Source of the DNA: Cupriavidus sp. P-10
GTDB taxonomy: Bacteria > Pseudomonadota > Gammaproteobacteria > Burkholderiales > Burkholderiaceae
Assembly (NCBI RefSeq): GCF_003402535.2
Contig: NZ_AP025171.1
Location: forward strand, 1,798,001-1,862,000
Direction: 5' to 3'
Length of the DNA stretch: 64,000 nucleotides
Numbering within the stretch: the first letter of the stretch is position 1; each line of letters starts with the position of its first letter. Below, in pieces: positions 33,633 through 55,964 of this stretch. Below the pieces are notes generated by a model. That model had not been told where the DNA came from and made no database searches. It was given only the letters and a program-made list of their open reading frames with translations. A program made the position numbers and the translations under genes.

Positions 33633-34088
33633 TTACGGACGCGCCGGTTGCGACGGTTGCGACGGTTGCGAACGGTATTGTTCGCGCAGCACCCGGAACA
33701 GCTCATGGCTGACCTGCACGCCGCGGTACTGGCGCCGCACCACCGCGCGCAGGCGCGAGCCCAGCACGTGCGCGCGGAGCGCGCGTGCATAGCGCCGCTG
33801 CACCGCCTGTTCGCCCTTGCTGACCGCGTGCAGGATGGCGCGATCCGAACGGTGCTTGCCGGAGCCGGCGCTGCACGCCGCGGCCGGCATGGCCTCCGGC
33901 AACTGCCCGAGCTGCAGCAGGCACGCCTGCAGTTCCTGCGCCGCCAGGGCAAAGGCATTGGCGCGGCTGGTCAGCACCGACTTGAGATGCGGATTGGCAG
34001 CGGCGAGCGCCGCGCGCCGGCAATCGTGTTCGCCCTCGCGCGAGACCGCGATGAGCGCGTTGAGCACCAGGATCTTTTTCTTTGCCAT
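33633..34088 (-). CDS. PA2169/DUF2383-like four-helix-bundle protein
   Basis: The 151-residue helical protein fits the PA2169 family: ILVLNALIAVSREGEHDCRR, LTSRANAFALAAQELQACL, RSDRAILHAVSKGEQAVQRR, and RAVVRRQYRGVQVSHELFRV. Ferritin-like bundles of this kind occur among stress proteins. The basic C-terminus ends in QPSQPSQP repeats. Family assignment is by remembered pattern, so moderate confidence. Confidence 0.65.
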   Translation of the reverse strand: MAKKKILVLNALIAVSREGEHDCRRAALAAANPHLKSVLTSRANAFALAAQELQACLLQLGQLPEAMPAAACSAGSGKHRSDRAILHAVSKGEQAVQRRYARALRAHVLGSRLRAVVRRQYRGVQVSHELFRVLREQYRSQPSQPSQPARP

Positions 34089-34835: not shown

Positions 34836-37800
34836 GTGCGGATCTGCCAGATGGACCTGACCGGAACGCCGGACGCCGACGAACACGCCCTGCAACGCGT
34901 GGCGGCGCTGGGCTTCGACCACGTACTGATCGGCGGCTGGCCGCACCTGTCCGGGACTGACACGCTGGCGGCGTGCAGCCGGCATGGGCTGGCGCCGCTG
35001 CTCGACATTTCACTGGACCGCTCCGGCACCGACGGGGAAGGCGCCACCGATCCCGACTGGATCGATGCCGCGGCCCCCGCTTTCGCGCCTCACGAGACCG
35101 ACAACCATCTGCCCGGCGCGCGCCTGCGCTGGCATGACCCGCGCGTGGCCGAAGCGCTGGTGCAATGGTGGGCCGCGCGGCTGCGGCTGGCATGGGCCTC
35201 GGGCGCTGCCGGCTTTTGCTGTCGCGCGCCGGCACGCGTGCCCGGCAGGCATTGGGCAGCGCTGGCCGACACCCTGCGCAACGACGCCACCCCGCCCGAA
35301 GCGCGCGGCACGCCGCTCCTGCTGGCGTGGACGCCCGGCCTGACGCCCGCGCAGCTCGACGACCTGGCTTCCGCCGGCTTCGATGGCGCCTTCTGCTCGC
35401 TGCCGTGGTGGGACTTCCGCAGCGCCTGGCTGACCGAGGAGATCGCGCGGCTGCGCCGCTTCGGCCGGGTGCTGGCCGCACCCGCGCTGACCCCTGCCAG
35501 CCAGGATGCGCTGAGCGCACGGCGCGCGCTGTGGACCGCCGCCGCCATCGGCGACGGCATCCTGGTGCCAGCCGGTTTCGAGACCGGTGGCGCACTTGCA
35601 CGCGACCCCCTGGCTCCCGACGGCGCCGGCCAGGACGGGGCGCCATACGACATCACGCATGAGCTGCTGGAGGCCACCACCTGGCTCGCCTCGCGCGATC
35701 CCGCGCCGGCGCTGGCGGTGCGGCTGCTCAGCGGGCCCGAGGCGCCGCTCACGGTGCTGGCGCGGCTGCCCGCACCGAACGGCCTGTGCACGGATCCGGC
35801 CACGGGCAACGGCTTTGCCGAGCCAGATGGCGCCGCGGCGCTGATGGTGGTGGTCAATCCCGATCCCATGGCACCCGGCACGCTTGGCGCAGACCGCATG
35901 CTGAGCGCGCTGCCGCACGCCAGCGCCCACCTTGAAGCCACGCCAGGCGGACCCGGCGGCACGGTGAATGCCAGCAACCGGCTCGACGCCCTGGGGTCGA
36001 TCACGCTTGCCCCCGCCGACATCCGCCTCTTTGAAGCGCCGCCGGTGCCGCTGACCCGGCCCGGCATGCCACGCGCCGATGCGCGCGCGCCGCACGGACA
36101 CGAGACCCTGGCCGCAACCGGGCTGGGCAGCGTGGTCGCCGCCATGGAAGCGCCGCGCGTCGCCATCGAACGCGTCGAACCCGCCTGCGACGACGGCCGC
36201 TTCGCGGTGCGGCGCGTAGTGGGCGAACGCGTGGACGTCAGCGCCGATATCTGGATGGACGGGCACGACAAGCTCGCCGCCGTCGTACTGTGGCGTGCCC
36301 CGGGCGAGACCGACTGGCACGAAGAGCCGCTGCAGCCCGTGGTCAACGACCGCTGGCAAGGCAGTTTTCCGCTGGTGGCGCTGGGCCGCCATGAATTCAC
36401 CGTCGAGGCCTGGCGCGATGCCTATGCCAGCTGGCTCGACGAGATCAGCAAGAAGCGCGCGGCCGGGCTCGACGTCAGCCTGGAAACCGAGGAAGGCGCA
36501 CGACTGATTGCGGACGCGCTGCTGGGTCCCGGGGGCAAGAGCGGCAAGAACGGAAAGAAAGGCAATGGCAGGAAGAACGGCCAGAAGCCTGCGTCGGACA
36601 GCGAATTGTCCGCCATCGTCGAGGACCTGACCGCCGCGGCGGGCGATGACAAACGCCGTCTTCAGATCCTGCTGTCGCCCCGCACCGCGGCCGCCATGCA
36701 GGCTCACATGGCCACCCCGGCGGGCAGGCAGTTCGCCTCGCGCCACCCGGTGGCGCTGCCGGTAGAGGCCGACCGTCTCGCGGCGCGCTACGCCAGCTGG
36801 TACGAGCTGTTCCCGCGCTCGCAAAGCAACGACGAGCAGCGCCACGGCACCTTCGACGATGTCATCACACGGCTGCCCGCCATCCGCGCAATGGGCTTCG
36901 ACGTGCTCTACTTCACGCCGATCCACCCCATTGGCCGTACCCACCGCAAGGGCCGCAACAACAGCCTGCGCGCCGAGCCCGACGACCCGGGCAGCCCGTA
37001 TGCGATCGGCGGCGACGAGGGCGGGCACGATGCCTTGCATCCCGAGCTGGGCACGTTCGACGATTTCCGCCGCCTGTGCAATGCCGCCGCCGCGAACGGG
37101 CTGGAGATCGCGCTCGACTTCGCGATCCAGTGCTCGCCCGACCACCCGTGGCTGAAAGACCATCCAGAATGGTTCGCGCACCGCCCCGACGGCTCGCTGC
37201 GCTATGCCGAGAATCCGCCCAAGAAGTACGAGGACATCGTCAACGTCGACTTCTACGCCGCGCCGCCCGCCGGCGCCGCGCTGTGGCAGGCGCTGCGCGA
37301 CGTGGTGATGTTCTGGGCCGACCACGGCGTGCGCATCTTCCGCGTGGACAACCCGCATACCAAGCCGCTGCCGTTCTGGGAGTGGATGATCGCCGACGTG
37401 CGCGCCCGCCACCCCGACACCATCTTTCTGGCCGAGGCCTTCACGCGGCCGAAGATGATGGCGCGGCTGGCCAAGCTGGGCTTCAGCCAGTCGTACACCT
37501 ACTTCACCTGGCGCAACACCAAGTGGGAACTGACCGAGTACCTGACCGAGCTGACGCAGGGCCCGCTGCGCGAATTCTTCCGCCCGCACTTCTTCGTCAA
37601 TACGCCGGACATCAATCCCTATTTCCTGCACCACGGCGGCCGCCCTGCGTTCCTGATCCGCGCGGCGCTGGCCACCTTGCTGTCGGGGTTGTGGGGCATG
37701 TACAACGGCTTCGAGCTGTGCGAGAGCGCACCGTTCGTGCTCGACGGCAAGGTGCGCGAGGAATACCTCGACTCCGAGAAGTACCAGCTGCGCGCCCGCG

Positions 37801-38243
37801 ACTGGCACCAGCGCGGCAACATCGTCGCCGAGATCTCGCGCCTGAACGAGATCCGCGCCGGCCACCCCGCGCTGCAGAGCCACCTGGGGCTGCGCTTCTA
37901 CCATGCCGGCAGCGATGCGGTGCTGTGGTTCGCGCGCTTCGTTCCCGGCACCGACTACCTGTTCGGCGATGACGTGCTGCTGGGCGCGATCAACCTGGAC
38001 CCGCGCAGCGCGCACGAGACCGACATCGAACTGCCGCTGTGGGAATGGGGCCTGCCCGACCATGCGCGCGTGGCCGTGCACGACCTGATGCGTGGCCAGC
38101 GCTTCGAGCTGCAGGGCAAGCACCAGCGCATCCGCCTCGACCCGGCGCAGTTGCCCTTCGCGGTGTGGCAGGTACGCCCGCTGGACCGGCCGGCGCCGCG
38201 CCCCGCCGCCGCCCCGGTGTCGACCGACCCGCACGGCGCCTGA
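34836..38243 (+). CDS. glgE: GlgE: alpha-1,4-glucan:maltose-1-phosphate maltosyltransferase, with N-terminal barrel-like extension
   Basis: The enzyme adds the maltosyl unit of alpha-maltose-1-phosphate to the non-reducing end of alpha-1,4-glucans. Residues from about 437 to 1135 (about 700) form a normal-length GlgE: an N-terminal beta domain, then the GH13 barrel with nucleophile Asp838 in RIFRVDNPHTKP and acid/base Glu867 in IFLAEAFTRP. Residues 1-436 are extra and look like a degenerate amylase barrel (FDHVLIGGWPHLSGTD, ILVPAGFETGG) without catalytic Asp/Glu motifs. A Lys/Gly/Asn-rich insert (GGKSGKNGKKGNGRKNG) lies near residue 570. The GTG at 34836 follows GGGAGG with ideal spacing. It is the first gene of the cluster. 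Confidence 0.92.
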   Translation: MRICQMDLTGTPDADEHALQRVAALGFDHVLIGGWPHLSGTDTLAACSRHGLAPLLDISLDRSGTDGEGATDPDWIDAAAPAFAPHETDNHLPGARLRWHDPRVAEALVQWWAARLRLAWASGAAGFCCRAPARVPGRHWAALADTLRNDATPPEARGTPLLLAWTPGLTPAQLDDLASAGFDGAFCSLPWWDFRSAWLTEEIARLRRFGRVLAAPALTPASQDALSARRALWTAAAIGDGILVPAGFETGGALARDPLAPDGAGQDGAPYDITHELLEATTWLASRDPAPALAVRLLSGPEAPLTVLARLPAPNGLCTDPATGNGFAEPDGAAALMVVVNPDPMAPGTLGADRMLSALPHASAHLEATPGGPGGTVNASNRLDALGSITLAPADIRLFEAPPVPLTRPGMPRADARAPHGHETLAATGLGSVVAAMEAPRVAIERVEPACDDGRFAVRRVVGERVDVSADIWMDGHDKLAAVVLWRAPGETDWHEEPLQPVVNDRWQGSFPLVALGRHEFTVEAWRDAYASWLDEISKKRAAGLDVSLETEEGARLIADALLGPGGKSGKNGKKGNGRKNGQKPASDSELSAIVEDLTAAAGDDKRRLQILLSPRTAAAMQAHMATPAGRQFASRHPVALPVEADRLAARYASWYELFPRSQSNDEQRHGTFDDVITRLPAIRAMGFDVLYFTPIHPIGRTHRKGRNNSLRAEPDDPGSPYAIGGDEGGHDALHPELGTFDDFRRLCNAAAANGLEIALDFAIQCSPDHPWLKDHPEWFAHRPDGSLRYAENPPKKYEDIVNVDFYAAPPAGAALWQALRDVVMFWADHGVRIFRVDNPHTKPLPFWEWMIADVRARHPDTIFLAEAFTRPKMMARLAKLGFSQSYTYFTWRNTKWELTEYLTELTQGPLREFFRPHFFVNTPDINPYFLHHGGRPAFLIRAALATLLSGLWGMYNGFELCESAPFVLDGKVREEYLDSEKYQLRARDWHQRGNIVAEISRLNEIRAGHPALQSHLGLRFYHAGSDAVLWFARFVPGTDYLFGDDVLLGAINLDPRSAHETDIELPLWEWGLPDHARVAVHDLMRGQRFELQGKHQRIRLDPAQLPFAVWQVRPLDRPAPRPAAAPVSTDPHGA

Positions 38244-38264
38244 CCGGCATACGTGGAGACACGG

Positions 38265-43911
<5,647 letters not shown>

Positions 43912-43915
<4 letters not shown>

Positions 43916-46152
43916 CCCGACCCTTCGCGGACCGGCTTCTCCCCGGCAAGCCATATCCACTGGGCGCCCACTGGGACGGGCTGGGGGTCAACTTCGCGGT
44001 GTTCTCGGCGCATGCCTCGCGCATCGACCTGTGCCTGTTCTCCGAGAACGGCCGCAAGGAACTGGCACGCATGCCGCTGCCGGAATGCACCGACGAGATC
44101 TGGCACGGCTACCTCCCCAACGCGGCACTCGGCACGCTGTACGGCTACCGCGCGCATGGCCCCTACGATCCCGCGCACGGGCACCGCTTCAACCCGCACA
44201 AGCTGCTGCTGGACCCCTACGCGCGCCAGCTGAGCGGCCCGGTGCGCTGGGCCGATGTGCTGTTCGGCTACCGCCTCCAGAGCGCGCGCGGCGACCTGAC
44301 GCCGGACCGCCGCGACAGCGCCCAGAGCATGCCCAAGGCGGTGGTGATCGACGAAAGCTTTCACTGGGGCGACGACCGCCCGCCCGCGGTGCCGTGGCCT
44401 GCCACCGTCATCTACGAGGCCCACCTGCGTGGCCTGTCGATGCTGCGCGACGACCTGCTGCCCAACCTGCGCGGCTCCTTCGCCTCGCTGTGCGACCCGC
44501 GCTTTATCGACCACCTGGTGCAGATGGGCATCACCACCGTGGAGCTGCTGCCGGTACACGCCATCCTGCAGGACCGCTTCCTGCTGGAGCGCGGGCTGCG
44601 CAACTACTGGGGCTACAACACCATCGCGTACTTCGCCCCGGAACCGGCGTACCTGGGCACAGGGCAGTTGCAGGAATTCAAGGTGGCGATGCGGCGCCTG
44701 CATGCAGCCGGCATCGAAGTGATCCTGGACGTGGTCTACAACCACACCTGCGAGGGCAACGAACTGGGGCCGACGGTATCGTGGCGCGGCCTGGACAACG
44801 CCAGCTACTACCGCCTGATGCCGGGCGACGAGCGCCACTACATCAACGACACCGGCTGCGGCAACACGCTCAACCTGTCGCAACCGCGCGTGCTGCAGAT
44901 GGTGATGGACTCGCTGCGCTACTGGGTGGAGTGCTACCACATAGATGGCTTCCGTTTCGACCTGGGCAGCACGCTCGGGCGCGAGGGCAACGGCTTCGAC
45001 CAGGGCTCGGGCTTCTTCGATGCGCTGATGCAGGACCCGGTGCTGAGCCGCGTCAAGCTGATCTCGGAACCGTGGGACCTGGGCCCCGGTGGCTACCAGC
45101 TCGGCAACCACCCGCCCGGCTTTGCCGAATGGAACGACAAGTTCCGCGACGCGGTGCGCCGCTTCTGGCGCGGCGATGCCGGCAAGCGCGGCGAACTGGC
45201 CGCGCGGCTGGCGGCCTCGGCAGACATGTTCGACCGGCGCCACCGGCGCCCGTGGGCCAGCGTCAACTTCATCACCGCGCACGACGGCTTTACGCTGGCG
45301 GACCTGGTCAGCTACAGCAGCAAGCACAACGAAGCCAACGGCGAGGACAACCGCGACGGCACCGACGACAACGCCAGCGCCAACTGGAGCCCGGACGGCA
45401 GCATCGAAGGCCCGACCGACGACCCGGAGATCCTGGAGCGCCGCAATCGGGTGGCGCAGGCGCTGATGGCCACGCTGCTGCTCGCGCAAGGCACGCCGAT
45501 GCTGACCGCCGGTGACGAATGGGGGCGCACCCAGCACGGCAACAACAACGCCTATTGCCAGGACAACGAGATCTCGTGGCTGCACTGGAAGCAGGCCCAG
45601 ACGCCCGGTGCGCAGCCGCTGCAGCACATGGTGCGACGCCTGCTCGCACTGCGCCGGCGGCTGCACGCGCTCACCGGCGACCGCTTCGCCCACGGGCGCC
45701 AGGAACCGGCGCGCGGCATCGCCGACATTGCCTGGTTCGATACCGACGGCAAACCGCCCACCCCCGAGGAATGGGCAGACCCGGAAGTCCGCACGCTGGC
45801 ACTGCGCCGCGCTGCCCCGCCGCCGCAACCTGAGCGTCCGCAACTGGGTTCGATGCCGGAAGAGGAGGAGGACGAAGACGATGCGCGCACCGTGCAGGTG
45901 ACGCTGCTGCTGCTCAACGCCGGCGAGGCCGATGCGTCGTTCCTGCTGCCCGAGCCCAGGCTGGCCTGGACCCGGCTCTTCGACAGCAGCCGTCCCGAAG
46001 CCACCGAGTCCGAGCTTGCCGGCGATGCGGTGGGCGAAAGCCAGGTGGTGCCGGGCCATTCGCTGGTGCTGCTGGCCGCCCCGGCCCGCAGCCGTGAGAG
46101 CCCGCACCAGGAAAGCCCTCCGCTGGGCGCGCCGCAGGAGACACAGGAATGA
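43912..46152 (+). CDS. glgX: Glycogen debranching enzyme
   Basis: The 746-residue isoamylase-type GH13 enzyme hydrolyses alpha-1,6 branches. It opens with [20 protein letters not shown] (CBM48). Catalytic residues are Asp350 in [12 protein letters not shown] and Glu386 in [16 protein letters not shown], with the third Asp in [14 protein letters not shown]. An acidic run, [12 protein letters not shown], lies in the C-terminal part. In a cluster with treY/treZ it may do the job of TreX, giving linear chains for trehalose release. Start and stop overlap both neighbours as ATGA. Confidence 0.93.
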
Positions 46153-48407
46153 CCCGACGTACGCACGCGCCGCCCCCCACGCCACTGCAGAAGCTGGCGC
46201 TGCGCGCGGACCTGCAGCCGCATTGGACGGATGCATGGAGCCAGCCGCAAACCGTGTCCGACGACGCGCTGCGGCGCGTGCTGGACGGCCTTGGCCTGCC
46301 CTGCTCGACGCCTGGCCAGTGCGAAGCCTCGCGCGCCTGGCTCGCGGCCGATGACGCCGCCCATACGCTGCCGCCGCTGGTCACCGCCGAACGCGGCCAG
46401 CCGGTGGCGGTGCCATGGCCGCACACGCTGCCGGAGCGCGCTTACCGGCTGACGCTGGAAGACGGCGCCATCGTGACCGGCACCGCAGTGCGCGCGCACG
46501 CGGACGGTAATCCGGCCGGCACCATGCTGCTGCCGCCCATCGATGTTTGCGGCTACCACCGGCTCGAACTGGGCGATGCGCAAACGGTGCTGGCGGTGGC
46601 TCCCGCACGCTGCTACGGCGTAGCGGACGCGCTACGTCACGCCGGCCGCGCCGCTGCCGGCGCCGGCGCACGCCCATGGGGCCTGGCAGTACAGCTCTAC
46701 AGCCTGCGCCGCGGCGCCAACTGCGGCATGGGCGACCTGACCGCACTGGCCGGGTGTTGCACCAGCGCCGCTGCCCTGCACGCCGACGCGGTCGCGATCA
46801 ATCCGCTGCATGCCGGCTTTGCCGCGCTGCCGCAGCGCTACAGCCCGTATGCGCCTTCCAGCCGGCTGTTCCTGAATCCGCTGTACGCCGATCCCGCCGC
46901 GATGTTCGGCCAGGCAGCGCTGGACGCGGCCATCGCCTCGCTTGGCATCGGCGAGCAGCTGGCCGCCCTCGAAGCGCTCTCGGAAATCGACTGGATCGCG
47001 CTGGCGCCGCTGCGCTACGCCGTGCTGCACTGGCTCTGGCAGCGGCGCGAAAGCCTGCTGCCGCGTGCGGCGCTGGACGACTGCGCCGCCTTCCGGGCGC
47101 GGGGGGGCACTGCGCTGCATGCGCACGCCTGCTACGAGGCGATCCAGGCGCAGCGGCTGGCCGGCTCCACCAACGGCATGAACCACGCGTCGGCGCCCGA
47201 CTGGCGCTGCTGGCCGGTCACGCTGCGCTCGCCCACCGACGCCGCGGTGGCGGCCTTTGCCCGCGACCATGCCGACGATGTGGCCTGCCACGCCTTCCTG
47301 CAATGGCTCGCCGCCGATGGCATGGCGCGTGCGCAGCGCGCCGCGCGCGACGCCGGCATGGCGGTCGGCGTGGTCTGCGACCTGGCCGTTGGCGCCGACC
47401 CGGGCGGCAGCCAGGCATGGACCCGCCAGCAGGAAATCCTGGCCGGCTTCCATGCCGGCGCGCCGCCGGACCTGTACAACCCGCTCGGCCAGGACTGGGG
47501 CGTCGCGGTGTTCTCGCCGCGCGGCCTGCGCCAGCACGGTTACGCCGCCTTCCTGGAAATGCTGCGCGCGAACCTCTCCCACTGCGGCGGGCTGCGCATC
47601 GACCATGTGCTGGGCCTGGCGCGGATGTGGCTGGTGCCCGCCGGCGCATCCGCCAGCGACGGCGCCTACCTGCGCTACCCGCTGAACGACCTGCTGCGGC
47701 TGGTGGCGCTGGAATCCTGGCGGCACCGCGCCATCATCATCGGCGAGAACCTCGGCACGGTCCCGCCCGAGCTGAACGCGGCGCTGGCCGCGCGCGGCGT
47801 GCTCGGCATCGACGTGCTGTGGTTCCAGCGCGAGGCAGTGACGGCGGCCAAAGCCGATGCCGAAGCCGATGCCGATCCAGCCGTCGAAGCCGATCCCGTC
47901 GCGCCGTTCCAGCCACCCGCGCAGTGGCCGCCCGAGGCCATCGCCACCACCTCCACGCACGACCTGCCCACCGTCGCCGGCTGGTGGGCCGGGCGCGACC
48001 TCGACTGGCGCGACCGGATGAAGCTGCTCGCGCCCGGCGAAACCCTGGCGCAGGCGCAGGCGGGCCGAGCCCGAGAGCGCAGCGCGCTGTGGCAGGCGCT
48101 GAACCAGGCCGGGCTATGTCAGGGCCAGGAGCCCGATCCCGCGCACGCACCGCTGGACGCCGTGCTTGCCTGGCTGGGCACAGCCCGCACCGCCATGCGC
48201 GTGGTTCCGCTGGAAGACCTGCTGGGCGAGGCCGAGCAGCCCAACCTGCCCGGCACCACCAGCGTCCATCCCAACTGGCAGCGCCGGCTTGATGCCGACG
48301 TGCGCGCGCTGGCCGACGCGCCGGAACTGCGCGCCCGCGCGCAATCGATTCGGCAAGCCGTTCGCAGTGGCCGTCACCGCACCCTGGATCCGCCACCGCG
48401 CGGCTAG
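46149..48407 (+). CDS. malQ: 4-alpha-glucanotransferase (amylomaltase)
   Basis: The 752-residue GH77 enzyme transfers maltodextrin segments between chains, recycling short chains for phosphorylase or GlgE. Family motifs include WGLAVQLYSLRRGANCGMGD, YSPYAPSSRLFLNPLY, nucleophile Asp485 (LRIDHVLGLARMW), Glu533 (IGENLGTVPPEL) and STHDLPTVAGWW. A run of Ala/Asp/Glu residues (ADAEADADPAVEADPV) interrupts the region after the catalytic Glu and looks like a loop expansion. The ATG overlaps the glgX stop. Confidence 0.92.
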   Translation: MTRRTHAPPPTPLQKLALRADLQPHWTDAWSQPQTVSDDALRRVLDGLGLPCSTPGQCEASRAWLAADDAAHTLPPLVTAERGQPVAVPWPHTLPERAYRLTLEDGAIVTGTAVRAHADGNPAGTMLLPPIDVCGYHRLELGDAQTVLAVAPARCYGVADALRHAGRAAAGAGARPWGLAVQLYSLRRGANCGMGDLTALAGCCTSAAALHADAVAINPLHAGFAALPQRYSPYAPSSRLFLNPLYADPAAMFGQAALDAAIASLGIGEQLAALEALSEIDWIALAPLRYAVLHWLWQRRESLLPRAALDDCAAFRARGGTALHAHACYEAIQAQRLAGSTNGMNHASAPDWRCWPVTLRSPTDAAVAAFARDHADDVACHAFLQWLAADGMARAQRAARDAGMAVGVVCDLAVGADPGGSQAWTRQQEILAGFHAGAPPDLYNPLGQDWGVAVFSPRGLRQHGYAAFLEMLRANLSHCGGLRIDHVLGLARMWLVPAGASASDGAYLRYPLNDLLRLVALESWRHRAIIIGENLGTVPPELNAALAARGVLGIDVLWFQREAVTAAKADAEADADPAVEADPVAPFQPPAQWPPEAIATTSTHDLPTVAGWWAGRDLDWRDRMKLLAPGETLAQAQAGRARERSALWQALNQAGLCQGQEPDPAHAPLDAVLAWLGTARTAMRVVPLEDLLGEAEQPNLPGTTSVHPNWQRRLDADVRALADAPELRARAQSIRQAVRSGRHRTLDPPPRG

Positions 48408-48521
48408 CCGCAAGGATCGGCGCGCGAAGGTGGCGCCCACCCCACCCGCGCCGCGATCCGGGCGCGCACTGCTCTCCCATCCGCTAAGCTTGACCCACCA
48501 GCATGCGCAGGAGGTCCCGCC

Positions 48522-51065
48522 ATGAAGGAAGTGATCCGGCCCGAGCACGCCGACGACACCCGTACCGCCCTGTCCGGCGCCAGCCTGCGGCGCGCGTTCC
48601 TGGACCACGTGTTCCATACCCAGGGCAAGCTGCCCGGGCACGCCAGCCAGAACGACCTCTACCAGGCGGCGGCGCACACCGTGCGCGACCGGTTGGTGCA
48701 GCGCTGGATCAGCACCGCCGAAGCCTACCTGGGCCAGCCTTCGCGCACCGTCGCCTACCTGTCGGCCGAATTCCTGATGGGCCCGCACCTGGGCAACAAC
48801 CTGATCAACCTCGGCATCTTCGATGAAGTGCGCGAGGCCATGGCGGCGGCCGGGCTGGATCTCGACCGCATCCTGGAGCAGGAAGTCGAGCCGGGGCTAG
48901 GCAACGGCGGCCTGGGTCGGCTGGCGGCGTGCTTCATGGATTCGCTGGCGACGCTGGAGATCCCGGCGCTGGGCTACGGCATCCGTTACGAATACGGCAT
49001 CTTCCAGCAGACCATCATGGACGGCATGCAGGTGGAGAAGACCGATACCTGGCTGCGCAACGGCAACCCGTGGGAGATCCAGCGCTCCGAATGGGCGGTA
49101 CAGGTGCGCCTCGGCGGCCACACCGAGCACTACACCGACGACCGCGGCCACTACCGCGTGCGCTGGGTGCCGGCCAAGACCGTGGCCGGCGTGCCCTTCG
49201 ACTCGCCGATCCTGGGCTACCGCGTCAATACCGTGAACACGCTGCGGCTGTGGCGCGCCGATGCCACCGAGGCCTTCGACTTCCATACCTTCAACCGCGG
49301 CGACTACCTCGGCGCGGTGAGCAAGAAGGTGACGTCGGAGAACCTGACCAAGGTGCTCTACCCCAACGACGAGACCGCGCAGGGCAAGGAGCTGCGGCTG
49401 GAGCAGCAGTACTTCTTCGTCGCCTGTTCGCTGCAGGACATGTTGCGGCTGCTGGCCGTCGATGGTATCCCGGTGACGCGCTTCCACGAGAAGTTCGCGG
49501 TGCAGCTGAACGACACGCACCCGGCGGTAGGTATCGCCGAACTGATGCGGCTGCTGGTCGACGAGAACGACCTGACATGGAACGAGGCCTGGGACATCAC
49601 CCAGCGCGCCTTCGCCTATACCAACCACACGCTGCTGCCCGAGGCGCTGGAGCGCTGGCCGCTGCAGTTGTTCCGCCGTGTGCTGCCACGGCACCTGGAA
49701 ATCATCCTGGAGATCAACGCGCGCTTCCTGGACGAGGTTCGCATCCGTTTCTTCGGCGACGAATCGCGGCTGTCGCGGCTGTCGCTGATCGACGAGCAGG
49801 GCGAGCGCCATGTGCGCATGGCCAACCTGGCGTGCGTGGGCAGCCACGCCATCAATGGCGTGGCCGAGCTGCACTCGCGGCTGATGCGCGAGGACGTGCT
49901 CAAGGACTTCTACGCGATGTGGCCGGAGAAATTCACCAGCATCACCAACGGCGTCACGCCGCGACGCTGGCTGGCGCTGTCCAACCCGAGGCTGACGCGG
50001 CTGGTGACCGATGCGATCGGCGATGGCTGGATCTCCGACCTGGAGCGCATCCGCGTGCTCGAGCCCTATGCAGACGATGCCGGCTTCCGCAAGGGATGGC
50101 AGGCGATGCGGCGCGCCAACAAGGAAGACCTGGCGCAGCTGATCCGCGACACCACCGGCGTGGTGGTGGATCCGTCGTCGATGTTCGACGTGATGGTCAA
50201 GCGCATCCACGAATACAAGCGCCAGCACCTCGCGGTGCTGCACGTGATCGCGCTGTACCACCGCATCAAGTCCGACGCGAACGCGGAGATCCCCCCGCGC
50301 ACCTTCCTGTTCGGCGGCAAGGCCGCGCCGGGTTACGAATACGCCAAGCTGATGATCCGCTTCATCACCTCGGTCGCCGAAGTGATCAACCGCGACCCGC
50401 AGGTGCGCGACCGGCTCAAGGTGGTGTTCCTGCCCAACTTCAACGTCACCTACGGCCAGCGCATCTACCCGGCGGCCGACCTGTCCGAGCAGATCTCGCT
50501 GGCGGGCAAGGAGGCCTCCGGCACCGGCAACATGAAGTTCGCGATGAACGGCGCGCTCAACATCGGCACCATGGACGGCGCCAATATCGAGCTGCGCGAG
50601 GCCGTCGGCAACGACAACTTCTTCCCGTTCGGCCTGACCGCGTCCGAGGTCTATGCCCTGCGCGCGAGCGGCTACGACCCGGCGGCCTACTACCACAGCA
50701 ATCCGCAGTTGCGCGCTGTGATCGACCTGGTCCAGCAGGGCTTCTTCTCGCGCGGCGATCCGGCGCTGTTCCGGCCGCTGTGCAACCCGCAGGCGGGGCA
50801 CGACCCCTACCTGCTGCTGGCGGACTTCGCTTCCTATATCGAATGCCAGCAGATCGTCTCCGACGCCTATGCCGACCAGGATCGCTGGCAACGCATGTCG
50901 ATCCTGTCGTGCGCGCGTTCCGGCCGCTTTTCGTCCGATCGCGCCATCCGTGAATACTGCGAGCGCATCTGGAACGTCGAGCCGGTGCCGGTGCGGCTCC
51001 TGCACCGTGCCAGCGGCGCGCCGTGGCAGGTAGATCCCGGCGCCCGGGGGCCGCGCGCGGCATAG
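48522..51065 (+). CDS. glgP: Glycogen/maltodextrin phosphorylase
   Basis: The 847-residue GT35 enzyme releases glucose-1-phosphate from alpha-1,4-glucans using PLP. Clear signatures are VEPGLGNGGLGRLAACFMDS, KFAVQLNDTHPAVGIAELMR and the PLP site EASGTGNMKFAMNGALNIGT with Lys672. Length is full. It follows malQ after 114 bp, with AGGAGG before the ATG, so it may have its own promoter or be read through. With GlgX and MalQ it forms the glucan breakdown arm. Confidence 0.95.
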   Translation: MKEVIRPEHADDTRTALSGASLRRAFLDHVFHTQGKLPGHASQNDLYQAAAHTVRDRLVQRWISTAEAYLGQPSRTVAYLSAEFLMGPHLGNNLINLGIFDEVREAMAAAGLDLDRILEQEVEPGLGNGGLGRLAACFMDSLATLEIPALGYGIRYEYGIFQQTIMDGMQVEKTDTWLRNGNPWEIQRSEWAVQVRLGGHTEHYTDDRGHYRVRWVPAKTVAGVPFDSPILGYRVNTVNTLRLWRADATEAFDFHTFNRGDYLGAVSKKVTSENLTKVLYPNDETAQGKELRLEQQYFFVACSLQDMLRLLAVDGIPVTRFHEKFAVQLNDTHPAVGIAELMRLLVDENDLTWNEAWDITQRAFAYTNHTLLPEALERWPLQLFRRVLPRHLEIILEINARFLDEVRIRFFGDESRLSRLSLIDEQGERHVRMANLACVGSHAINGVAELHSRLMREDVLKDFYAMWPEKFTSITNGVTPRRWLALSNPRLTRLVTDAIGDGWISDLERIRVLEPYADDAGFRKGWQAMRRANKEDLAQLIRDTTGVVVDPSSMFDVMVKRIHEYKRQHLAVLHVIALYHRIKSDANAEIPPRTFLFGGKAAPGYEYAKLMIRFITSVAEVINRDPQVRDRLKVVFLPNFNVTYGQRIYPAADLSEQISLAGKEASGTGNMKFAMNGALNIGTMDGANIELREAVGNDNFFPFGLTASEVYALRASGYDPAAYYHSNPQLRAVIDLVQQGFFSRGDPALFRPLCNPQAGHDPYLLLADFASYIECQQIVSDAYADQDRWQRMSILSCARSGRFSSDRAIREYCERIWNVEPVPVRLLHRASGAPWQVDPGARGPRAA

Positions 51066-51249
51066 ATGCCTTCATGCGCGCATGCGCGAAGTGTGCGGTA
51101 TCGCATGCGCGGGACGCCGAATGAACCCCGGTACTTTCTACAATCGCCCATGTAACAAAACTGTCGGCACGGCCCGCTCCTGCCCGCGCGCCGCGCCGCA
51201 ATGCGCTGTTCTGCTGGCATGGAGTTCGCATTGCGCAAGAGCCGCCGCA
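51066..51249. promoter_or_regulatory. Probable separate promoter region for treZ-treY
   Basis: This 184-bp gap holds GGTACTTTCTACAATCG at 51130-51146, closely similar to the motif before glgE. This suggests treZ-treY is started independently but under the same control. No gene is seen in it. Confidence 0.4.
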
Positions 51250-53301
51250 ATGCCTACCTCAAGGTCCCCAGATCCAGACCCAGACCCAGACGCCAACCGT
51301 TGGCAGGAGCCGAATTTGAATGCGAACCCGATTCTAGTCGCCCCGGGTGCCAGGTCCACCCTGCCAAACCTGGCCCCGCTCGACTGCTTTGCCGCGCCCT
51401 CTTCACGGGCCTTTTCCTCCAACGACGAACACGCGCAGGACTACCTGTTCGGGCCGGCCTGGCTGCCTGACGGGCGCGTGCGCTTCCGCCTGTGGGCGCC
51501 TGACGCGGCCGAGCAAGGCCACGCCGTGCGGCTCGAAATCGCGGGCCTGGGACCCGTCCATATGGCGGCGGGGCCCAACGGCTGGTTCGAGGCGATCGTG
51601 CCGTGCTGCGAAGGCGCGCGCTACTGGTTCCGGCTCGACGACGGCACCACCGTGCCCGACCCGGCCTCGCGCTGGCAGGCCGACGACGTGCACGGGCCGA
51701 GCATCGTGCCGGCGCGCGACGCTAGTGCCTCGTACGCGTGGACATGCCCCGACTGGCGCGGCCGGCCCTGGCATGAGGCCATCGTCTATGAAATGCATGT
51801 CGGCCTGTGCGGCGGCTTTGCGGGCGCCGCGCAGCAACTGCCGCGGCTGGCCGCGCTGGGCTTCACCGCCATCGAGCTGATGCCGGTGGCCGAGTTTCCC
51901 GGCGCACGCAACTGGGGCTACGACGGCGTGCTGCCGTTCGCGCCGGAGTCCAGCTACGGCACCCCTGACGAGTTGCGCGCGCTGGTCGACCGTGCGCACG
52001 CGCTCGGCCTGATGGTGCTGCTGGACGTGGTCTACAACCACTTCGGGCCCGAGGGCAACTACCTGCACCGCTACGCCAGCGCCTTCTTCCGCACCGACCG
52101 GCAGACCCCATGGGGCCCGGCCATCGATTTCCGGCGCCCGCAGGTCCGGCGCTTCTTCACCGAGAACGCGCGCTACTGGCTGGAACAGTTCCGCTTCGAC
52201 GGGCTGCGGCTCGACGCGGTCCACGCCATCGAGGACGAAGGCTGGCTTGCGGCGCTGCCCGGCGAACTGCGTACGGCGCTGGCCGATAGCGCTCGCGGCA
52301 CTGGCGGTGATCGCCACGTGCACCTGGTGCTGGAGAACGACAACAACGACGCCGCGCTGCTGGCGCAGGGCTTCGATGCGCAATGGAACGATGACGCCCA
52401 CCACGCGCTGCATGTGCTGCTGACGGGCGAGGACGACGGCTACTATCGCGACTATGCCGGCCCCGCCGGCGTTGCTCCCGCTGCCGCCGAGCGTGGCCAG
52501 CCTGCGCTGCGCCACCTCGCGCGCGTGCTGGCCGAAGGCTTTGCCTACCAGGGCGAGCCCTCGCGGCACCGTTCCGCCGGCGCGGCCGCCGCCGTGTGCC
52601 GCGGCCAGCCCAGCGCGCACCTGCCGCCCACGGCCTTTGTCAGCTTCCTGCAGAACCACGACCAGGCCGGCAACCGCGCGCTCGGCGAACGGCTGGCCAG
52701 CCTGGCCGACCCGCGCGCGCTGCGTGCCGCCGTGGCGCTGCAGCTGCTGTGCCCGCAGGTGCCGTTGGTGTTCATGGGCGAAGAGACCGGCTCGCGGCAG
52801 CCGTTCCTCTACTTCACCAGCCATCCGCCGGAACTGGCCGAGGCCGTGCGCGAAGGCCGCCGCCGCGAATTCGCCGCCAGCGCGGCCTTCGGCGACGATG
52901 CGCGCGCCGCCGCCATCCCCGATCCCAACGACCTGGTTACGTTCGACGCGTCGCGGCCTGCGCTGGAGGACGACGCTGACTGGGCCCCGTACTACCGCGA
53001 GCTGCTGTCGATCCGGCGACGCGAGCTGTTGCACCGGCTGCCGGGCTGCCAGTCTGCCGGTGTCGACATCCTGGGCCGCGCGGCGCTTTGCGCGCGCTGG
53101 CACCTGATGGACGGCATGGAGCTGAGCCTGTGGCTGAACCTCGGCGACGAAGCGGTGCCCGCCATGCAACCCTGTCACGACCAGCGCGCGGCGCTGCATG
53201 AGAGCGCACCGGGCGCTGCCGCGGAACTGTCCGCCGGCATGCTGCCGCCGCTGGCCTGCGTCGCCACGTTGTGCGAGCCCGCCGCGGCGCGCGCCAGGTA
53301 A
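51250..53301 (+). CDS. treZ: Malto-oligosyltrehalose trehalohydrolase
   Basis: The 683-residue GH13 enzyme cuts trehalose from maltooligosyl-trehalose. Features are VRFRLWAPDAAEQGHAVRLE (N-terminal beta domain), GVLPFAPESSYGTPDELRAL, nucleophile Asp322 (GLRLDAVHAIEDEG), Glu in HLVLENDNND and Asp in FLQNHDQAGNRALGER. The N-terminal 60 residues before the domain include a PDPDPDPD run and are poorly conserved. A TTG at 51316 with AGGAG six bases upstream is an equally good start giving 661 residues. Its TAA stop overlaps the treY ATG by one base. Confidence 0.9.
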   Translation: MPTSRSPDPDPDPDANRWQEPNLNANPILVAPGARSTLPNLAPLDCFAAPSSRAFSSNDEHAQDYLFGPAWLPDGRVRFRLWAPDAAEQGHAVRLEIAGLGPVHMAAGPNGWFEAIVPCCEGARYWFRLDDGTTVPDPASRWQADDVHGPSIVPARDASASYAWTCPDWRGRPWHEAIVYEMHVGLCGGFAGAAQQLPRLAALGFTAIELMPVAEFPGARNWGYDGVLPFAPESSYGTPDELRALVDRAHALGLMVLLDVVYNHFGPEGNYLHRYASAFFRTDRQTPWGPAIDFRRPQVRRFFTENARYWLEQFRFDGLRLDAVHAIEDEGWLAALPGELRTALADSARGTGGDRHVHLVLENDNNDAALLAQGFDAQWNDDAHHALHVLLTGEDDGYYRDYAGPAGVAPAAAERGQPALRHLARVLAEGFAYQGEPSRHRSAGAAAAVCRGQPSAHLPPTAFVSFLQNHDQAGNRALGERLASLADPRALRAAVALQLLCPQVPLVFMGEETGSRQPFLYFTSHPPELAEAVREGRRREFAASAAFGDDARAAAIPDPNDLVTFDASRPALEDDADWAPYYRELLSIRRRELLHRLPGCQSAGVDILGRAALCARWHLMDGMELSLWLNLGDEAVPAMQPCHDQRAALHESAPGAAAELSAGMLPPLACVATLCEPAAARAR

Positions 53302-55964
53302 TGCCGGCCACGGCAGGCACCGCGCCGGCAGCCGCGCGCGGCTTGCCGCGCGCCACCGCCCGGTTGCAGCTGCACCCTGGCTTCACCTTCGCCGATGCCG
53401 CCGGCGTGGTCGACTACTACGCCGCGCTGGGGGTCAGCCACCTGTACCTGTCACCGGTCTGCGAGGCACGGCCGGGCTCCTCGCACGGCTACGACGTCAC
53501 CGACTTCACCCGCGTGCGCGAGGAACTGGGCGGCGAGGCCGGCCTGAAGGCGCTCGCCGCGCGCGCGCGCAGCGCCGGCCTCGGGCTGATCCTCGATATC
53601 GTCCCCAACCACATGGCGGCGGACTGCACCCACAACGGCTGGTGGCGCGATGTGCTGGCGCACGGGCGCGCCAGCCCCCATGCCGGCTGCTTCGACATCG
53701 ACTGGACGCCGCGCGACCCGGCGCTGCATGGCAAGGTCCTGCTGCCAATCCTGGGGCAGTCGTACTGGGACGCGGTAGTCGCGGGCGAGCTGCAGTGGGT
53801 GCCCGCCAGCGGCGGACAGCCGGCCCATTTGCGCTACTTCGACCACGTGCTGCCGCTGGCGCCCGGCAGCGCCGATGCCGAGGCCACCACCGACCCCGGC
53901 TGGTACGACACCACGCAGGCCTCCGGTCGCAGCCGCCTGCACGCGCTGGCGGAACGCCAGCACTACCGGCTGGCCTGGTGGCGCACCGCTGCCGCCGCGC
54001 TGAACTGGCGCCGCTTCTTCGAGATCAGCGACCTGGTCGGCGTGTGCGAAGAAGACCCGCAGGTCTTTGACGCGGTCCATGCGCTGGTCTTCAGGCTGCT
54101 GAGCGAGGGCTGGATCGACGGCGTGCGCGTGGACCATGTCGACGGGCTGGCCGATCCTGCCGGCTACTGCCGCCGCCTGCGCGACGGACTCGACCGGCAT
54201 GCCGCCGCGCGCCCGCCGCTGCTGCGGCTGCAGCGCCCGTGGCTGGTGGTCGAGAAAATCCTCGGCGGCGGCGAACGGCTGCCGCCGGACTGGCAGGTCG
54301 ACGGCACCACCGGCTACGACTTCATGGATGAAGTGGCCGCGGTGCTGCACGACGAGGCCGGCGAAGCGGCGCTCACTGCGCTGTGGGCCATGACCAGCGG
54401 CGACGCGCGCCCGTACACCGATTATGTGCGCGAGGCCCGCTGCCTGGTGCTGCAGCGGCACCTCGTCACCGAATGCGAAGGCGTGACGGCCCGCCTGCAC
54501 GCCTGCGCGCAACAGGAGCCCGGCACCCGCGACCTCACGCCGGCGGCGCTGCGGCAAGCACTGATGGCGCTGATGGCCGCAGTGCCGGTCTACCGCAGCT
54601 ACTACGACGCGCAGCCGACGGCGCGCGACGCCGGCGCCGCGCATGCCGATGACGCCATGGTCGACCAGGCCCTGCTGTCCGCGCGCGGCGGCCTGGCACC
54701 GGACGAGGCCGTGGCGCTGGCATTCATCGCCGGCTGCCTGCGCACGCAGGCCGCGCCGGACAGCGATACTGGCGTGCTGCGCCGCCGCCTGCAGCAGCTA
54801 ATGCCGGCGCTGGCGGCCAAGGCCGGCGAGGACACCGCCTTCTACCGCTACGGCCGGCTGCTGTCGCGCAACGAGGTGGGCAGCGACCCGGCGCAGCTGG
54901 CCACGCCGCCGGCGCAATTCCACGCCCGCATGGCGGCGCGCCGGCTGGCCGGCCCGCATGCGATGCTGGCCACTGCCACGCATGACCACAAGCGGGGCGA
55001 GGACGCACGCATGCGGCTGGCCGTGCTGAGCGAGCTGCCGGGCACTTTCGCCGACGCGGTCGCCGCGTGGGAGCGCGACTGCGCGTCACTGCTCGCCACG
55101 CTGCCGCGCGCGCCCGACCCGGCCAGCCGGCTGATGCTGTACCAGGCGCTGATCGGGGCATGGCCGATGGAGCATGCCGGCGAAGCGGCGCCGGTACCTG
55201 AAGCCCTGCTGGCGCGGATTTCAGCGTGGCAGGTCAAGGCCATCCGCGAAGCCAAGCGCCATGGCAACTGGACCTGCCCCGATGCCGAGTACGAAGGGGC
55301 ATGCGAGGCCTTCCTGCGCGGGATCGCGGCGGCGTGGCCGCAGGGCGTGCTGGCCCATATCGGCAGCTTTGCGCAGCGGATTGCCACTGCCGGCGCGGTG
55401 AATAGCCTGGCGCAGGTGCTGGTGCAACTGACCGCGCCCGGCATCCCGGACCGTTACCAGGGCACCGAAGGCTGGGACCTTAGCCTGGTGGACCCTGACA
55501 ACCGGTGCGCGCCGGACTTCACCCGGCTGCAGTCACGGCTGGCGTGCGGCGCGGGCTGGGCACACTGGCTGGCGCACTGGCGCGACGGCCGGCTCAAGCA
55601 GCAACTGGTGCGCCATGTGCTCGCCGCGCGCGGCGCCGACCCCGGGCTGTTTGCCGACGGCCAGTACAGCATGCTGGCTGCCCAGGGCGCGCTGGCGCCG
55701 CAGGTACTCGCGTTTGCGCGCAGCACTGCGTCGCGCCAGGCCGTCACCGTGGTAACGCGGCTGTCGGCGTCCCGGGTCGACCCGGCCGTGCCGCGCATTC
55801 CGCCGGCGTACTGGGGCGACACCACGCTGAACCTTGGCGCGCCACAGCCGGGCCGCTGGATCGACGCGCTGACGGGACATCCGCTCGATGCGCCCGCTGG
55901 CCGCCTGCGCCTGCGCGATGTGCTGGGCGGGCTGCCGGTGGCACTGCTGCTGCGCGAGCCCTGA
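53301..55964 (+). CDS. treY: Malto-oligosyltrehalose synthase
   Basis: The 887-residue GH13 enzyme converts the reducing-end linkage of maltodextrins to alpha,alpha-1,1, the first step of the TreY/TreZ route. Signatures are DYYAALGVSHLYLSPVCEAR with PGSSHGYDVTDF, LDIVPNHMA, Asp278 (GVRVDHVDGLADP), Glu318 (WLVVEKILGGGERLP) and ATHDHKRGEDARMRL. Length is somewhat above the common 720-800. The ATG shares a base with the treZ stop (TAATG), so the two are coupled. It is the last gene of the carbohydrate cluster. Confidence 0.94.
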   Translation: MPATAGTAPAAARGLPRATARLQLHPGFTFADAAGVVDYYAALGVSHLYLSPVCEARPGSSHGYDVTDFTRVREELGGEAGLKALAARARSAGLGLILDIVPNHMAADCTHNGWWRDVLAHGRASPHAGCFDIDWTPRDPALHGKVLLPILGQSYWDAVVAGELQWVPASGGQPAHLRYFDHVLPLAPGSADAEATTDPGWYDTTQASGRSRLHALAERQHYRLAWWRTAAAALNWRRFFEISDLVGVCEEDPQVFDAVHALVFRLLSEGWIDGVRVDHVDGLADPAGYCRRLRDGLDRHAAARPPLLRLQRPWLVVEKILGGGERLPPDWQVDGTTGYDFMDEVAAVLHDEAGEAALTALWAMTSGDARPYTDYVREARCLVLQRHLVTECEGVTARLHACAQQEPGTRDLTPAALRQALMALMAAVPVYRSYYDAQPTARDAGAAHADDAMVDQALLSARGGLAPDEAVALAFIAGCLRTQAAPDSDTGVLRRRLQQLMPALAAKAGEDTAFYRYGRLLSRNEVGSDPAQLATPPAQFHARMAARRLAGPHAMLATATHDHKRGEDARMRLAVLSELPGTFADAVAAWERDCASLLATLPRAPDPASRLMLYQALIGAWPMEHAGEAAPVPEALLARISAWQVKAIREAKRHGNWTCPDAEYEGACEAFLRGIAAAWPQGVLAHIGSFAQRIATAGAVNSLAQVLVQLTAPGIPDRYQGTEGWDLSLVDPDNRCAPDFTRLQSRLACGAGWAHWLAHWRDGRLKQQLVRHVLAARGADPGLFADGQYSMLAAQGALAPQVLAFARSTASRQAVTVVTRLSASRVDPAVPRIPPAYWGDTTLNLGAPQPGRWIDALTGHPLDAPAGRLRLRDVLGGLPVALLLREP

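Follow-up and report, generated by a model that had tools for sequence, protein, structure and literature searches.

A glgA-less GlgE-pathway operon in Cupriavidus, probably fed by OtsAB, with an apparently tandem GlgE

The 64,000-nucleotide stretch of Cupriavidus sp. P-10 analysed here, referred to below as the window, carries at positions 34836-55964 (+) eight intact same-strand genes in the order glgE, treS-mak, glgB, glgX, malQ, glgP, treZ and treY. In our judgement this run is quite probably an OtsAB-fed GlgE-pathway operon for building up and recycling a glycogen-like glucan, trehalose being both its precursor and its product, with TreY and TreZ (TreYZ) providing the return path; glgA would have been lost from it, and its GlgE would be a tandem protein. 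The configuration is most likely a known pathway in a less usual arrangement. A sequence-only reading of the window had already named these eight genes and their common direction, and each identity was borne out by matches to NCBIfam, Pfam or the PDB.

The run encodes both directions of trehalose-glucan interconversion

Seven of the eight proteins score above the curated cut-off of their NCBIfam models. In bits against cut-off, the fused protein gives 935 vs 678 for TreS and 557 vs 375 for Mak, and the others give 1002 vs 741 (GlgB), 1002 vs 641 (GlgX), 283 vs 206 (MalQ), 1178 vs 553 (GlgP), 625 vs 539 (TreZ) and 935 vs 499 (TreY). GlgE is above cut-off for no NCBIfam model and was identified by Pfam GlgE_dom_N_S (186 vs 25 bits) and by a match to solved GlgE chains, to which residues 440-1113 align with an E value of 1.6e-174. 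Its catalytic Asp838, Glu867 and Asp925 form an intact Asp/Glu/Asp set that is conserved in 78/78 aligned proteins, and its best-segment identity to a group of named Cupriavidus records is 84-94%. All residue counts refer to these 78 proteins, the window's own included, two of the 79 named GlgE loci having been dropped (one partial, one frameshifted). By sequence, then, GlgE is accompanied by TreS, a maltokinase and GlgB, as expected of a GlgE pathway, and TreY and TreZ are found with a debrancher, so that the earlier proposal of a two-way trehalose-glucan interconversion agrees with the gene identities.

The junctions are, in order, a 9-bp gap, three 4-bp overlaps, a 114-bp gap, a 16-bp gap and the treZ/treY overlap, which measures 31 bp from GTG 53271 or 1 bp (TAATG) from the in-frame ATG that we prefer. 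The statement that most junctions overlap by 1-4 bp therefore stands for three of the seven, and for treZ/treY if the preferred start is used, but not for the three gaps. This spacing is compatible with a single operon. In three scanned stretches there was no promoter match and no + strand terminator match, and Rfam (at gathering thresholds) and tRNA scans gave no lead.

Joint expression of such genes, whose absence the sequence-only reading would have counted as a refutation, is reported in C. necator H16. RNA-seq of this strain placed seven genes of these kinds among the top 50 differentially expressed, all raised during the glycerol phase: H16_B1557 (glycosidase-like), H16_B1558 (trehalose synthase), glgB, pulA, treY, malQ and glgP, with treZ not named in the set (PMC4377017). 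Going by function and order rather than by the H16 sequence, we infer H16_B1557 to be glgE and pulA to be glgX, and the set to be the same run. H16_B1563, a glycosyl hydrolase named on glycerol in another study (PMC7712004), might be treZ, which is a guess from its numbering. Co-induction of this kind is no proof of one mRNA.

The genome has otsAB and no recognisable glgA or glgC

The genome searched comprises 9.08 Mb in five contigs, is listed as 100% complete and holds the window on contig C2. A six-frame search of all of it for the GT5 glycogen synthase (PF08323) gave no match, while the same search was positive in 12 of 14 control genomes; we therefore reject the idea that a glgA was overlooked by annotation. 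For GlgC (TIGR02091), the whole genome yielded four sub-threshold matches, the best at 24.6 bits against a cut-off of 424.9. Across the whole genome and at curated cut-offs, neither the GT5 synthase nor the ADP-glucose pyrophosphorylase of classical GlgC-GlgA glycogen synthesis was found, nor, in the whole-genome GT5 search, the GlgA that serves as the entry enzyme of the Pseudomonas-type network. The absence of glgA and glgC, claimed earlier for the run, thus extends to the genome, and no glgA-glgC pair turned up that could supply glucan from elsewhere.

The search did find otsAB, which the sequence-only reading had proposed looking for: one match each to OtsA (C1:404935, 409 bits) and OtsB (C1:402152, 123 bits), the latter about 2.2 kb before the former with a GH15 enzyme between them. 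A GT20 synthase and a trehalose phosphatase are accordingly present by sequence, unlinked to the run, and GlgE would be the sole alpha-1,4-glucan polymerase recognised in the genome. The earlier reading proposed a buffer with no need of ADP-glucose; a nucleotide sugar is probably required all the same, because OtsAB uses nucleoside-diphosphate glucose (NDP-glucose) and net trehalose would need these unlinked genes.

The group of otsB, the GH15 glycosidase and otsA (locus L163, 14-8276, on contig C1 of the window's genome, G000) has a gene for an OprB-type porin on its upstream side. As a possible glucoamylase or trehalase, the GH15 enzyme could draw on the same pool.

Cupriavidus operons with and without glgA

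Gene orders were compared across 60 Cupriavidus genomes, the window's own included, using locus stretches and tblastn mapping. OtsA is present in 60/60 and GlgE in 54/60; a GlgP-family match was also obtained in 54, in 53 of them above cut-off. A strong GT5 (E < 1e-60) occurs in 24 genomes, and in 20 of these it is part of the operon. The window's order without glgA, which we call form A, is found in 28 genomes, the window included, and a gene order shared this widely argues that the run is no chance arrangement. In form B (20 genomes) glgA follows glgP, and malQ and glgP are separated by other DNA of about 2-2.7 kb, as measured in loci where both genes lie in the stretch; the glgP-glgA-treZ-treY order of this form is on one contig in 18 of the 20, with a contig break inside it in G009 and G048. 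Form C, with the order glgE-treS-glgB-glgX-treZ-malQ-treY, is found in three genomes, one of which (G005) was traced only up to malQ. The arrangement in genome G058 is of a fourth kind: glgA precedes a broken glgE, treS-mak run, and the matches to that run are spread over several frames. G038 (form A) and G046 (form B) were counted by gene order alone, and the operon is too fragmented in G043 and G045 for a form to be assigned. The single run described for the window is therefore a property of form A and not of the genus, since in form B glgA follows glgP and malQ and glgP are separated.

To follow the history of the operon, four operon proteins were concatenated and trees were built with FastTree (56 rows) and with a quick IQ-TREE run (41 rows, after removal of 15 of the 56, mostly near-duplicates). 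Broken or fragmented operons (G038, G043, G045, G046 and G058) are excluded, and both trees describe the history of the operon as distinct from a species tree. In both, form B is placed on both sides of the window's glgA-less clade. This clade of 14 rows has a Shimodaira-Hasegawa-like approximate likelihood ratio test (SH-aLRT) support of 100 in the IQ-TREE analysis, which also places G037, a separate form A row, within a form B clade with a support of 100. The presence and absence of glgA takes three state changes in the ingroup; for the label B, 0 of 500 shuffles came as low.

The ancestral Cupriavidus operon most likely contained glgA, and we favour reading the uninterrupted run without glgA as the derived state within the genus. 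The trees suggest at least two independent losses of glgA, one in the window's clade and one in G037. That glgA was lost rather than gained is something we infer: two losses are simpler than repeated gain because glgA sits at the identical place in both form B clades. Form C is a third glgA-less lineage, to which we assign no loss history. We considered whether G037 lost glgA by importing a window-type operon and rejected this, as its first six genes resemble those of form B more closely than those of the window's clade. For treZ and treY, comparison of G037 with form B matched the wrong paralogue, the form B loci stopping short, and is uninformative.

Several further observations concern the places where the forms differ. 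Genome G040 (form A) has an unrelated 2.3-kb insert between glgP and treZ; a glgA remnant at this junction was rejected, as there is no significant GT5 match and the insert carries an unrelated open reading frame (ORF). The malQ-glgP interval holds an antisense PAS/histidine kinase/receiver gene in 12 form B genomes. At two loci of the other form B clade (L141 and L151) it holds an antisense type IB topoisomerase, Pfam-confirmed for L151, and at L141 a small receiver, read by eye, stands beside it. The idea that the antisense hybrid kinase was always lost along with glgA was rejected, as the basal form B clade has these other genes there. The window itself encodes at 17992-19959 (+) a 655-aa PAS-PAS-histidine kinase-receiver hybrid that is 38% identical to the form B antisense kinase; we do not claim it as the relocated form B gene, this identity being too low. 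GlgE went undetected in 6 of the 60 genomes. In one of these, G052 (L166), treZ, treY and the antisense kinase are kept and the glgE half is missing from the examined stretch, as if most of the operon had been deleted.

GlgE is apparently a tandem protein

GlgE owes its length of 1135 aa to its first ~437 residues, which have the appearance of a decayed GlgE catalytic barrel and form an extra domain that the sequence-only reading missed. From its sequence the protein is apparently a tandem, with a dead barrel copy at the N terminus followed by the working enzyme. Residues 1-437 match no Pfam family at E values up to 1. When a profile of this domain, built from 51 of the 78 aligned rows, was compared with the PDB, the eight best matches were all GlgE (best E 2.4e-16). 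In profile-profile comparison it aligned with the catalytic part of GlgE over 346 columns (E 3.6e-17), as against 151, 126, 158 and 76 columns for TreS, GlgB, TreZ and TreY (E 1e-6 to 1e-7; the TreY profile contains few sequences) and 87 columns for GlgX (E 8e-4), and the MalQ and GlgP profiles gave no match. As the longest and strongest match is GlgE, the preferred reading of the domain is that it duplicates GlgE's own barrel. Arg130 occupies the nucleophile position in this protein (across the 78 proteins R 31, D 26, L 12, I 6, other 3) and Thr166 that of the acid/base. Around the third catalytic Asp the profile-profile alignment has gaps in places, and no conserved counterpart was seen. Trp191, Trp192 and Trp198 are invariant (78/78). 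Compared with 16 distant relatives, the N-terminal domain is 25-38% identical and the working half 66-74%; the domain evolves faster than the working half, yet it has been retained.

It is unlikely, in our view, that the domain is instead an independent GH13-like or carbohydrate-binding domain, possibly an active glycosidase, rather than a decayed GlgE copy. Such an origin would fit the 18 of 51 members that touch hDGE_amylase and the 16 of 51 that touch a generic alpha-amylase model, as well as the nucleophile Asp kept in 26 of the 78 proteins, all of them Burkholderia, Paraburkholderia, Caballeronia or Trinickia records. It is harder to reconcile with the best PDB matches all being GlgE, with a GlgE alignment far longer than those to TreS, GlgB, TreZ and TreY, and with the acid/base position being Thr in 77/78. 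Additionally, a protein search with the domain gave four hits among 8000 candidates scored, namely a partial GlgE and three short proteins (211-359 aa) that match no Pfam family and are perhaps gene fragments, at least some of them from Cupriavidus.

The decayed-copy arrangement extends beyond the genus. Of 398 Pseudomonadota genomes sampled for spread, 63 encode GlgE; the profile matched directly upstream of it (E < 1e-24) in 19 of the 63, across eight families. This count may be too low, as at most four candidates were scored per genome and the 1046-aa frame of G341 matched only in its working half; in most GlgEs the profile matches the working half as well, with E values of about 1e-9 to 1e-17. 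The dead copy is probably a non-catalytic glucan-handling module. Such a role is plausible because the GlgE of S. coelicolor has a secondary glucan-binding site that aids polymer extension (PMC5076824). We put forward a broader proposal only tentatively: a large minority of proteobacterial GlgE proteins may be tandem, with a dead barrel long kept for a non-catalytic task, either capturing or orienting glucan chains or setting the oligomer state, and so improving priming or chain length. This could aid GlgE where it is the sole polymerase, and might explain why Cupriavidus was repeatedly able to dispense with glgA after OtsAB had become the only supplier of trehalose.

Proposed pathway and alternatives

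In the proposed pathway, OtsAB would make trehalose, the only recognised entry once glgA was lost. TreS would convert trehalose to maltose, Mak would phosphorylate the maltose, GlgE would polymerise the resulting maltose-1-phosphate and GlgB would add branches. For the return, GlgX would debranch the glucan and TreY and TreZ would release trehalose, whereas GlgP and MalQ would release glucose-1-phosphate as the exit to central metabolism. Storage through TreS, Mak, GlgE and GlgB costs one ATP per maltosyl unit. With both directions encoded in one run, control would have to lie partly beyond transcription, or the cycle would only burn ATP. These flux directions are those that gene content suggests. 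An osmotic or desiccation role would follow the analogy of Pseudomonas, in which trehalose serves osmotolerance and GlgE-derived glucan serves desiccation tolerance (PMC8084333).

The same genes could be read as mainly degradative, a scavenging unit in which imported maltodextrin or trehalose is processed through GlgX, MalQ, GlgP, TreY and TreZ as the main flow while GlgE only clears maltose-1-phosphate. We find this improbable. A phosphorylase, an amylomaltase and a debrancher do lie within the run, no GT5-type synthase is encoded, genes of these kinds rise in C. necator H16 on a shift from fructose to glycerol (PMC4377017), and a major facilitator superfamily (MFS) transporter, to which no substrate was assigned, lies at 26317-27720. 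However, no recognisable maltodextrin or trehalose importer was found in the scanned selection of window ORFs, a search that did not extend to the rest of the genome. GlgB and TreS-Mak sit in the tightest part of the run, and otsAB provides an internal source of trehalose. More improbable still is direct use of a nucleotide sugar, with an unrecognised GT4 enzyme (GlgM-like or Rv3032-like) making maltose-1-phosphate or linear glucan and OtsAB and TreS forming a side route. The GlgM-type model (TIGR02149) has 16 GT4-like matches in the whole genome, the best at 75.6 bits, but all lie far under the cut-off of 302.4 bits, and the control search also matched 14/14 named genomes, above cut-off in one only.

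Some observations weigh against the OtsAB-fed operon with a lost glgA. One of the 16 sub-threshold GT4-type matches could in principle make maltose-1-phosphate or glucan, and the case for this strain is made from genes and sequence comparison. A strong GT5 lies elsewhere in two of the 28 form A genomes (G026 and G039), so that some members of the clade may have a GlgA; in G026 it adjoins a phosphorylase of a different type (DUF3417 + PF00343), and no GlgC was found among the four large ORFs of that 9-kb stretch. FastTree printed a support of 0.68 for the window's clade, although re-rooting may have shifted these values. The preference for loss over repeated gain rests on parsimony and on the identical position of glgA. 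Finally, nine of the 48 named loci of other genera have a GT5 on the upstream side of glgE (flanks of at most 10 kb, absence elsewhere being weakly informative); as outgroup glgA was seen only upstream of glgE, the gene must have moved at some point.

Comparison with known systems

The pathway itself is already known, as are its connection with trehalose and cases where it occurs without GlgA activity. P. aeruginosa PAO1 shares GlgE, TreS/Pep2, GlgB, GlgX, MalQ, TreZ and TreY and also has no glgC, but it has two operons with an orphan glgP, a GlgA entry from UDP-glucose and no otsAB (PMC8084333). The Cupriavidus genes, in contrast, form one run that includes glgP, with no GlgA and with otsAB elsewhere. 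Woodcock et al. found that a P. aeruginosa delta-glgA strain loses all these metabolites and that otsAB restores trehalose, maltose-1-phosphate and GlgE-derived glucan (PMC8084333); form A Cupriavidus looks like a natural counterpart of that engineered delta-glgA::otsAB strain. The environmental Chlamydiae Estrella and Waddlia share a GlgE, TreS-Mak, GlgB cluster with OtsAB in the genome, and their classical GlgC-GlgA route is judged inoperative (PMC7935935). They differ in having a fusion of glgA to glgB, which in Estrella bears a nonsense mutation, and in that OtsAB is named for these two and TreY-TreZ for other chlamydiae (PMC7935935), whereas the window has TreYZ inside the operon and no glgA left. 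Glycogen accumulates in chlamydial relatives that have GlgE and OtsAB, and priming can be done by GlgE itself (PMC7935935). Together with the P. aeruginosa delta-glgA::otsAB strain, these cases provide a precedent for a GlgE-only store.

The mycobacterial GlgE network (see also PMC11046441) shares OtsAB, TreS, Mak, GlgE, GlgB and TreYZ. It differs in that GlgM makes maltose-1-phosphate, whereas no GlgC or GlgM is above cut-off here, and in that its GlgE is about 700 aa long and without the N-terminal copy. Solved GlgE structures (Streptomyces, Mycobacterium; 3zss, 5cgm, 4u33) align nearly throughout with residues 440-1113, catalytic residues included, but their chains have ~660-720 residues, and residues 1-437 of our protein match only their own catalytic barrel. 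Full-text literature searches, with subscription papers outside their scope, did not show us tandem GlgE or the Cupriavidus glgA losses, and we do not claim that they are unpublished.

Cupriavidus offers a natural comparison for asking what bacteria gain from having two glucan polymerases, and from a glucan-trehalose-glucan loop that seems futile. With sister clades that have and lack GlgA, and OtsA throughout, the role of each entry is testable by species comparison and single deletions. Additionally, the tandem GlgE brings a testable pseudoenzyme domain, absent from the solved actinobacterial structures, to an enzyme under study as an actinobacterial drug target.

Features of the window and its neighbourhood

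Table 1. Positions in the window of the run, its larger gaps, the N-terminal domain of GlgE and the upstream gene.
Feature	Position	Strand	Details
DUF2383 (PA2169-family) gene, divergent, upstream of glgE, outside the pathway	33633..34088	-	PF09537, 43.4 vs 30.8 bits
glgE, maltose-1-phosphate maltosyltransferase	34836..38243	+	1135 aa; GTG start, GGGAGG upstream; PF11896 + PF21702
GlgE N-terminal domain, residues 1-437	34836..36146	+	Apparent decayed duplicate of the GlgE catalytic barrel
treS-mak fusion, trehalose synthase + maltokinase	38253..41627	+	1124 aa; TIGR02456 + TIGR02457 above cut-off
glgB, branching enzyme	41624..43915	+	763 aa; NF003811/TIGR01515 above cut-off; PF22019, PF02922
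glgX, debranching enzyme	43912..46152	+	746 aa; TIGR02100 above cut-off
malQ, 4-alpha-glucanotransferase	46149..48407	+	752 aa; TIGR00217 above cut-off; PF02446
malQ-glgP gap, 114 bp	48408..48521	.	About 2-2.7 kb with other genes here in form B relatives
glgP, glucan phosphorylase	48522..51065	+	847 aa; TIGR02093 above cut-off
glgP-treZ gap, 16 bp	51066..51081	.	Site of glgA in form B Cupriavidus genomes
treZ, maltooligosyltrehalose trehalohydrolase	51082..53301	+	739 aa; TIGR02402 above cut-off, residues 133-692
treY, maltooligosyltrehalose synthase	53301..55964	+	TIGR02401 above cut-off; ATG 53301 preferred, ORF opens at GTG 53271

At the start of treZ (51082-51470), ~130 residues precede the family model, and many relatives align only from about residue 75-133.

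The sequence-only reading placed stress genes on both sides of the run. The basis for this is thin: the upstream DUF2383 gene and the BON-domain matches flanking the run on either side point that way, but the other identified neighbours are not clear stress genes. A PA2169-family gene lies upstream of glgE in 8 of the 79 named loci, and P. aeruginosa groups similar genes. On two Cupriavidus plasmids, genes for Ku and LigD lie near the operon: that of C. campinensis MJ1 (NZ_CP043441.1) carries form B with LigD and Ku matches downstream, and plasmid pRK1-2 of C. basilensis (NZ_CP062806.1) carries form C with a catalase, a PA2169-family gene, Ku and LigD nearby. Taken with the DUF2383 gene and BON matches of the window, these plasmid loci, one of them with catalase, hint at a survival island. 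On pRK1-2 (L168, 807-30885), the glg/tre operon lies between the catalase and PA2169-family genes and the Ku and LigD genes, an arrangement that resembles a transferable survival island.

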